Assembly: GCF_000447795.1 (NCBI RefSeq)
Contig: NZ_AUNI01000015.1
Location: 248,001 to 312,000, forward strand
Direction of reading: 5' to 3'
Length of the DNA: 64,000 bases
DNA from: Bacteriovorax sp. Seq25_V
GTDB taxonomy: Bacteria; Bdellovibrionota; Bacteriovoracia; Bacteriovoracales; Bacteriovoracaceae
This document shows positions 3,673-7,738 of this stretch, one piece after another (position 1 is the first letter of the stretch; each line of letters begins with the position of its first letter). A program made the position numbers and the translations under genes. The notes beneath the pieces were generated by a model, which did no database searches, was not told the origin of the DNA, and worked only from the letters and a program-made list of their open reading frames with translations.

Positions 3673-3967
3673 GGAACCACTTTTTCTTAAGTAAAAGTTA
3701 AGTCACTATTCGGATCTGCTTAATTAATCTTAACTTACTGCCTAAAATTACACGGTTTTGGGTAGAAAATGACTCGCTGTGCCTTAAAAACGTCAACTTT
3801 CGTTGTCATTTGCGAGAAATTGTTAAAAAAAAACAATTATTGAACGCGCTCATTTTATTGCAATAGTTCCATTTTGTGGTTGTAACATCTGCCGGAAGCT
3901 TTTTTATCCCTTTACTAGTTGCATCTAAGTTGCTAAATTCCTCTGACATTTAGAAAACCAAATTATC
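3673..3967. other. Intergenic region between giant surface gene and S6-S18 gene
   Basis: AT-rich spacer between two divergent genes with no credible ORF. The best sigma-70-like match towards the ribosomal operon is TTGCAA (3858-3863), 17 bases, then TGTAAC (3881-3886), which is only a moderate fit. Upstream there is a run of nine A residues near 3827-3835. The spacer is long enough to hold both divergent promoters and the leader of the ribosomal operon. Confidence 0.4.
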
Positions 3968-3992
3968 GCTCAGGCCAATTGTGGACCTGGGC
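3968..3992 (+). promoter_or_regulatory. Leader hairpin upstream of S6-S18 gene
   Basis: Positions 3968-3992 fold into a nine-base-pair stem (seven outer pairs including one G-U, two inner C-G pairs) with one bulged A and the six-base loop AATTGT. It ends 30 bases before the start codon and 21 bases before the AGGAGG. Leader RNAs that bind the S6:S18 heterodimer and repress translation are known in other bacteria. This hairpin sits in the right place, but I could not match the CCG-box features of that motif, so the regulatory role is inference. Confidence 0.35.
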
Positions 3993-4022
3993 CAATATCA
4001 TAATATTGTTCAGGAGGTTTGT

Positions 4023-4640
4023 ATGATTTATGAGTTGGCATTAGTAGCCAGACCAGAAGCTACTGACGAGCAAATTGCTTCGCTTAAAGACATGATCGCG
4101 GAAATCGCAGGTCAGTACGAAGGTGAAGTTCTTCTTACAGATGATTGGGGAAGAAAGCAATTCGCTCAAATCGCAAAGAATGGTGCAACACACGGGCACT
4201 ATGTTTATTTTATCGTTAAGGGTAATAACAAACTTAACGACGAAATTAACAGACGTACTAAGATCAGTGAAGACGTTCACAAGATTCTTCTAGTAAAACT
4301 ATCTGACATTGACGCTGAAGCTGAAGAGATTGTAAAAAAATACAAGACTCCTCATTCAAAAGCACACAATGGTTCTCAAACTGATGAGTTAGAGAAGGGT
4401 GGAGACAAAGATAGAAGAAGATTTTCTAAGAGAAAGAACTGTTGGTTTAAACAAAACAGCATCTCTGCAGATTGGAAAGATCCAAAAACTTTTAATTGGT
4501 TAGTAAATGAATTTGGAAAAATTCAACCATCTAGAGTTTCTGGAATTTCTAGAAAGCACCATAGATATGTTGAGTCAGCAATTAAGAGAGCAAGAAACAT
4601 TGGTTTAGCTTCTCACTTGTCTGGAAACCTAACTGAGTAG
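4023..4640 (+). CDS. rpsF-rpsR: Fused 30S ribosomal proteins S6 and S18
   Basis: One 205-residue ORF carries both S6 (about residues 1-105) and S18 (about 130-203, with KNCWFK, GKIQPSRVSG and HRYVESAIKRARN). Normally these are two adjacent genes whose products bind each other on the platform of the small subunit. The ATG at 4023 follows a strong AGGAGG (4013-4018); an in-frame upstream ATG at 3981 lacks this signal. The junction (about residues 106-129) is a charged Lys/Glu/Gly/Asp linker. Between the end of S6 and the start of S18 there is no in-frame ATG, GTG or TTG, so S18 has no start of its own. Both other frames have stops in the linker. DUF2232 and rplI follow, the classic rpsF-rpsR-rplI order. 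Fusion rather than sequencing error is my preferred reading. Confidence 0.9.
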   Translation: MIYELALVARPEATDEQIASLKDMIAEIAGQYEGEVLLTDDWGRKQFAQIAKNGATHGHYVYFIVKGNNKLNDEINRRTKISEDVHKILLVKLSDIDAEAEEIVKKYKTPHSKAHNGSQTDELEKGGDKDRRRFSKRKNCWFKQNSISADWKDPKTFNWLVNEFGKIQPSRVSGISRKHHRYVESAIKRARNIGLASHLSGNLTE

Positions 4641-6379: not shown

Positions 6380-7738
6380 ATGTCTAATCAACACCCACAG
6401 ATAAAAGAACTTCCACATGACCTTTTGGCAGAGAAATCACTTCTCTCATGTCTTCTATTAGATAGTCAGGCATTTGATGAGATTAGTGATTTAAAACTTG
6501 ATGGCTCTGAGTTCTATCATCCAAAATATGGTGTTGTTTACGATGCTATCAAAGACATGGCGCACTCGAGAAGACCAATCGATTACGTTACTCTTTGCTC
6601 TTACTTAACTTCTCGAGGAAAACTTGAAGAGTTAGGTGGACAAGCATTCATTCTTGAGATTACAGAAGATCAAGTTTCAAGTGTTAATATTAGACACTAT
6701 GCTCAGCTTGTAAAAGATAAAGCTTCTCTTAGAGAGATTGTAAGAACAGCAAGAAGAGTTGCTGATATGGGACTTACTTTTTCTGGTGATGCAGCTGACT
6801 TCATTCAAGAGGTCGAATCAAGTTTTTTTAAATTAACAAATGAAGCGAAGACAGGTGCACTTACAAAATTAAATGTCTGTCTTAAAGAAAATATAAAAGA
6901 ACTCGAGGATACTTCGAGAAGACCTGGTGAGATTCAAGGTATTCCAACTGGCTATAACAGTCTTGATGAATTACTGCTCGGTATGCAGCCTGGTCAGCTA
7001 ATTATTCTTGCTGCTCGTCCGGCGATGGGGAAAACTGCATTGGCACTAAACGTTGCTCAAAATGCATGTGACTACTCTAAACTTCCTGTTGCGATATTCT
7101 CTCTAGAGATGATGAAGAAGGAGCTCTCTATGAGACTTCTGACTCAAAGAGCGAAGGTTGATGCGAAGAAAATACGTCAAAAGAATTTTGATGACACAGA
7201 TCTTCGAAAAATCGGAATGGGAATTCAGGCCCTATCTGATCTTCCGATCTATATTGATGATAATGGTAGTATTACACTTTTGGATATTCAGTCTCAGTGT
7301 CGTAAAATTAAGGCCGAACAAGGTTTAGCTCTAATTGTAATCGACTACCTTCAGCTGATGAACTCACACAATAAGACTCTCTCTCGTGAACAACAGATCT
7401 CGGAAATTTCTAGGGGATTAAAGTCGATGGCCAAGGAATTAGATTGTCCTGTAATCGCACTATCTCAGCTTAATCGTTCCGTAGAATCTCGTCCTAACAA
7501 AAGACCAAACGTTTCCGATCTTCGTGAGTCTGGAGCGATTGAGCAGGATGCCGATATTGTTATGTTCGTGTATCGTGATGAGTATTATAACCCAGATACT
7601 AAAGAGCCTGGGATTGCTGAAGTTATCGTAGGTAAGAACAGAGCTGGTTCTGTTGGTACAGCGAAGATGGCCTTTGTTGGTGCTCACACAAGCTTTGAGA
7701 ACGTTGCTTATGATGACAGTAGAGCACCTGCTAACTAA
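6380..7738 (+). CDS. dnaB: Replicative DNA helicase DnaB
   Basis: 452 residues, the usual length for DnaB. The N-terminal primase-interacting domain spans about 8-150. The RecA-like helicase domain starts near 180 with the Walker A motif PAMGKTAL (Lys218), then the Walker B region IVIDYLQLM and the QISEISRGLKSMAKEL and LNRSVESR stretches; SDLRESGAIEQDAD is also conserved. The enzyme is a hexameric 5'-3' helicase at the replication fork. Its place downstream of rplI is common in bacteria. GAGG lies just ahead of the ATG. No intein or truncation is seen. The last codons overlap the start of the next gene, suggesting translational coupling. Confidence 0.97.
   Translation: MSNQHPQIKELPHDLLAEKSLLSCLLLDSQAFDEISDLKLDGSEFYHPKYGVVYDAIKDMAHSRRPIDYVTLCSYLTSRGKLEELGGQAFILEITEDQVSSVNIRHYAQLVKDKASLREIVRTARRVADMGLTFSGDAADFIQEVESSFFKLTNEAKTGALTKLNVCLKENIKELEDTSRRPGEIQGIPTGYNSLDELLLGMQPGQLIILAARPAMGKTALALNVAQNACDYSKLPVAIFSLEMMKKELSMRLLTQRAKVDAKKIRQKNFDDTDLRKIGMGIQALSDLPIYIDDNGSITLLDIQSQCRKIKAEQGLALIVIDYLQLMNSHNKTLSREQQISEISRGLKSMAKELDCPVIALSQLNRSVESRPNKRPNVSDLRESGAIEQDADIVMFVYRDEYYNPDTKEPGIAEVIVGKNRAGSVGTAKMAFVGAHTSFENVAYDDSRAPAN

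Follow-up and report, generated by a model that had tools for sequence, protein, structure and literature searches.

A natural in-frame fusion of the genes for ribosomal proteins S6 and S18 in the family of Bacteriovorax sp. Seq25_V

Introduction

Few traits of bacteria are conserved as strongly as the protein composition of the ribosome. In E. coli, the S6:S18 complex represses rpsF through the mRNA leader, which has a hairpin (H2) and two conserved cytosines that are contacted by K60 and R63 of S18, and whose H1 stem probably contains the Shine-Dalgarno sequence (PMC4647458). A different link between the two proteins has been described in mitochondria, where the bS18m-bS6m pair is bridged by a [2Fe-2S] cluster (PMC11791143).

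In the window, the whole stretch of 64,000 nucleotides that was analysed, S6 and S18 are encoded together by one gene. The gene arose by a natural in-frame joining of rpsF and rpsR, and we consider it quite probable that this happened once, early in the family, and that the product serves in the 30S subunit as an uncleaved 1:1 chain and represses its own synthesis through the leader. To our knowledge, no second case is known in which two ribosomal proteins of bacteria are naturally fused. The open-access literature searched yielded no description of an S6-S18 fusion, and a study of the genomes of predators in this phylum does not refer to ribosomal proteins or to fusions in its main text (PMC11656739).

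The Fused Gene and Its Product

A single open reading frame on the forward strand (4023-4640, stop included) encodes a protein of 205 amino acids in which complete bS6 and bS18 domains are joined by a charged linker. Its start codon is ATG, preceded by AGGAGG at 4012-4017. The bS6 domain (aa 1-92; 4023-4298, forward strand) matches PF01250 at aa 3-92 over the full length of the profile (positions 2-90 of 90) with 61.6 bits against a cut-off of 27, and scores 40.7 with the NCBIfam S6 equivalog, slightly under the cut-off of 42.9. The bS18 domain (aa 136-205; 4428-4637, forward strand), which has lost the metal-ligand site CX2CXnCX2H, is likewise full-length: its Pfam core (aa 148-195) covers positions 4-51 of 52 of PF01084 with 56.9 bits (cut-off 21), and it scores 52.9 with TIGR00165 (cut-off 38.75). 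Both Pfam domains are thus above cut-off, which bears out the preliminary description of complete S6 and S18 in one reading frame with a charged linker. That description had also noted that S18 has no start of its own, and in the window there is indeed no in-frame ATG, GTG or TTG between the domains, and both other frames contain stops. The genome to which the window belongs (3.45 Mb, 99.97% complete) carries a single S6 and a single S18, which share the fused frame, and a search across it for a second, separate copy of either gave none. Downstream lie a gene for a DUF2232 membrane protein (PF09991; 4661-5680, forward strand), rplI for ribosomal protein L9 (PF01281 and PF03948; 5697-6308, forward strand) and a replicative helicase gene, dnaB by sequence (6380-7738).

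The AlphaFold2 model of the protein, made with 46 family sequences, has a mean pLDDT of 84.8 and a pTM of 0.80. Confidence is highest in the S6 part (pLDDT about 91-96), which matches solved S6 chains; it is 60-87 in S18 and near 60 in the linker, one of the most poorly ordered regions of the prediction. The pTM value suggests that S6 and S18 may be positioned relative to each other, and the single chain may fold with S6 packed on S18.

Distribution of the Fusion

The survey covered 129 genomes of the window's family, in 118 of which S18 was detectable. The preliminary description had named separate rpsF and rpsR in related genomes as the comparison to make. Such separate short frames do occur, in five of the 118 genomes (G006, G023, G029, G032 and G099), beside 110 in which the open frame that holds S18 spans at least 203 aa; in two others (G013 and G140) the S18 frame is cut by a contig end. 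All 63 of the 63 long-frame genes that were read out in full have the order S6-linker-S18, with 198-214 aa. One fused genome, G007, matches the published Halobacteriovorax marinus SJ (PMC5760749) in size and has no second S6; by that match, the family is the one holding H. marinus, and the window comes from a different genus of it.

These results settle whether the window holds a frameshift or sequencing error, a doubt that the preliminary description had raised and that now carries a negligible probability. The A run near 4333-4340 is prone to indels, and an error there could have joined two genes, but the arrangement recurs in about 110 genomes from dozens of genera, including the one that matches H. 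marinus SJ in size, and all 63 read-outs are in frame, with selection at the protein level; an error shared by a whole family is not credible. The fusion is real, old and under selection, because it is family-wide and the RNA switch that usually governs the pair still precedes the gene. In one genome (G030; L063:2350-3300), S6 and S18 share a frame that is interrupted by a single TAA. This codon sits where the conserved Glu of D-x-E-K-D stands, and there is no ATG, GTG or TTG start between it and S18; an assembly error, readthrough and a non-canonical start are the candidate explanations.

In the family of genome G040, the longest S18 frame among 57 genomes is 167 aa, and among the genomes listed from other families of the phylum none has an S18 of fused length, the maximum being 155 aa. 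Beyond the phylum, sampling consisted of control genomes, solved structures, and plasmid and phage collections. Among the matches listed, each solved S6 or S18 chain covers just one of the two domains. The fusion was also sought in the plasmid collection, where the three inspected matches are separate genes, in the phage collection, where the matches cover S18 alone, and in viral contigs, none of which encodes a relative. In Legionella adelaidensis (L165:292-867), rpsF and rpsR are separate genes that share a reading frame and are 9 bp apart, which shows how small a step a fusion can need.

The Linker and the Fate of the Chain

The linker (about aa 97-135; 4311-4427, forward strand) consists of the S6 C-terminal tail (KKYKTPHSKAHNGS) and an acidic, charged stretch equivalent to the N-terminal extension that S18 has in split relatives. 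In those relatives, S6 mostly ends in an NYKSPF-like tail and S18 opens with an acidic extension ahead of DRRMFSRKKSCWF. To judge from the sequences, the linker in the fused forms resembles these segments placed end to end, the tail of S6 and the extension of S18 having presumably been turned into linker. Between close relatives, pN/pS is 0.19 in the linker, compared with 0.22 in S6 and 0.12 in S18, and the linker is therefore translated and constrained, under purifying selection. Its best-conserved part is NYKxP, which belongs to S6 and is not a processing site, because most split relatives carry it at the end of their S6 too. An in-frame ATG, GTG or TTG is absent from the linker region in 28 of the 63 fused genes and present in the other 35, five of which have a Shine-Dalgarno-like 4-mer upstream of it. 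The missing internal start described for the window is therefore not general in the family.

The fused chain most likely stays uncleaved. It would then enter the platform of the 30S subunit as one unit, with S6 and S18 in intramolecular contact, and if it is uncleaved their ratio is fixed at 1:1. It might instead be a polyprotein that is translated whole and cut in the linker, so that ordinary separate S6 and S18 reach the ribosome. Some bacterial ribosomal proteins, such as L27 of Firmicutes, do have a leader that is cleaved off, and a charged, poorly ordered linker of variable length would suit such processing, but no cleavage motif shared by the whole family turned up in the linker; the conserved stretch that was considered for this role is the S6 tail shared with most split relatives, and we regard cleavage as improbable. 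Still less probable is internal initiation, in which a separate S18 would also be started inside the linker, besides the fusion. The 35 genes with an in-frame candidate codon, five of them with the codon behind a Shine-Dalgarno-like 4-mer, speak for it, but a codon that is absent from the remaining 28, the window's gene included, is not a conserved S18 start, and we give this reading very little weight.

One observation counts against the model of an intact fused chain. The classical substrate of RimK is the free C-terminus of S6, ending in Glu. The window's own genome retains a RimK of the S6--L-glutamate ligase equivalog type (G000:C20:35058-35957; L156:1498-2400), which scores 425.6 bits with NF007764 against a cut-off of 331, and relatives of RimK are present in 83 of the 129 family genomes, although some of these matches may be RimK-like paralogues. 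In the fused proteins the C-terminus of S6 is internal, and Glu stands at the chain end in only part of them. The presence of RimK does not track a C-terminal Glu, and the idea that RimK now tails the end of the fusion was dismissed for this reason.

The mRNA Leader and Autoregulation

Comparison with the leader described in E. coli (PMC4647458) identifies an rpsF-type mRNA leader upstream of the gene (3965-4017, forward strand). It has an H1 stem with the Shine-Dalgarno sequence, a hairpin H2 (GCUCAGG/CCUGGGC; 3968-3992, forward strand) and an invariant C (4011) directly before AGGAGG (together 4011-4017, forward strand). Upstream of the fused genes, H2 (GCU...GGC) is 90% paired, seven of its nine pairs are changed on both sides, and its covariation score is 0.687 versus 0.223 for shuffles. 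In H1, the CUC 5' of the hairpin pairs with the GAG of the Shine-Dalgarno sequence (columns 28-30 with 82-84), with 96% of cells paired and one mismatch in the window; these pairs hardly vary, so they give no covariation signal. The second cytosine of the binding site is C in 45 of 45 and the first in 40 of 45 (T otherwise, the window included), the equivalence of the two to the CC of E. coli being by position only. On the protein side, K188 and R191, which by our own count along E. coli S18 correspond to its K60 and R63, do not vary in any of the 46 fused proteins.

A similar leader arrangement, judged by eye, is seen in two outgroups without the fusion (G038 and G049) and in the split G032, which suggests that the leader probably predates the fusion. 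The split genomes G023, G029 and G099 (L056, L062 and L115) seem to be without a CUCGCU hairpin leader before rpsF. An Rfam scan of the window and six loci gave no relevant match, and the covarying rpsF-type leader could become a new family.

The conserved leader and the invariant contact residues suggest that autoregulation is probably kept, with a single chain as the repressor: the fused chain would bind the leader, which would mimic its 16S site, and thereby repress its own translation. The preliminary description had expected the fusion to change autoregulation. This expectation is borne out in part, since the repressor would be one chain and not a heterodimer, while the leader architecture and the S18 contact residues are retained.

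Origin of the Fusion and Loss of the S18 Metal Site

A phylogeny of S6 plus S18, built from the domains without the linker core, has all fused forms and G030 in one clade (96/83) and the split forms outside it. In a tree of RpoB and RpoC, the split genomes fall within the fused ones, with weak support; on the same data, one clade of fused genomes has an AU p of 0.094 and is neither rejected nor supported. The metal site of S18 (CX2CX32CX2H) is found in none of the 63 fused proteins and not in G030, and it is present in all five split members of the family. Outside this family, the site is common in the phylum; it has also been lost in some families that have no fusion, and its loss alone therefore does not force fusion; loss of Zn as a sufficient cause was dismissed on this ground. 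We hypothesize that the tether makes the metal of S18 dispensable.

A single origin, early in the family, is the most likely history, in which the stop codon of rpsF and the adjacent start of rpsR would have been lost once. Several origins, or an ancestral fusion that was split again in a few lineages, are possible but doubtful. Such a history would account for the RpoB and RpoC tree, in which G032 and G023/G029 stand, with weak support, beside one of two fused groups, as well as for the different linkers of these groups (YKTPxSKxxxGS versus YKNPN) and for the one in-frame stop between the domains of G030. It has to contend, however, with the single fused clade of the S6 and S18 tree, with an AU test that fails to reject one clade, and with the metal site, the ligands of which are absent from every fused protein and kept in every split one and are unlikely to have been regained.

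Implications and Comparison with Known Systems

A fusion of S6 and S18 in culturable predators provides a natural test of whether the two proteins must ever act apart. The functions that it probes are the order of assembly, the tailing of S6 by RimK, the N-terminal acetylation of S18 and the autoregulation that depends on the heterodimer. We give about even chances to the proposal that in this ribosome the two proteins, elsewhere a heterodimer, are permanently one chain, the tether replacing both the metal-stabilised form of S18 and the assembly of the heterodimer, and the uncleaved protein acting alone as an autorepressor through the old leader. For annotation, the consequence is that genomes of this kind may be scored wrongly wherever a marker set or proteome search assumes S6 and S18 to be two proteins.

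The fused protein resembles bS6 and bS18 of other bacteria in that both domains exceed their Pfam cut-offs, the predicted S6 fold agrees with solved S6 structures, and rplI and dnaB are nearby; it differs in being one chain without a free S6 C-terminus or S18 N-terminus. In eukaryotes, UBA52 and RPS27A each combine ubiquitin with a ribosomal protein in a chain that is cleaved. There, as here, a ribosomal protein is made within a fused chain, but the partner is ubiquitin and is removed, whereas here two ribosomal proteins are joined. The leader shares with the described rpsF leader (PMC4647458) its position upstream of the rpsF start, the stem containing the Shine-Dalgarno sequence, the adjoining H2 and at least one conserved cytosine between them; its membership is judged by architecture only, and its ligand would be one covalent chain. 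The two forms of bS18, C+ with the Zn-binding CX2CXnCX2H and C- without it (PMC11791143, PMC9976891), are both represented in the family, the split proteins being C+ and the fused ones C-; the C- form coincides with the fusion here, whereas elsewhere in the phylum it occurs without one. The mitochondrial bS18m-bS6m pair is likewise a lineage-specific extra connection of these two proteins, made there by a metal bridge and here by a peptide bond.
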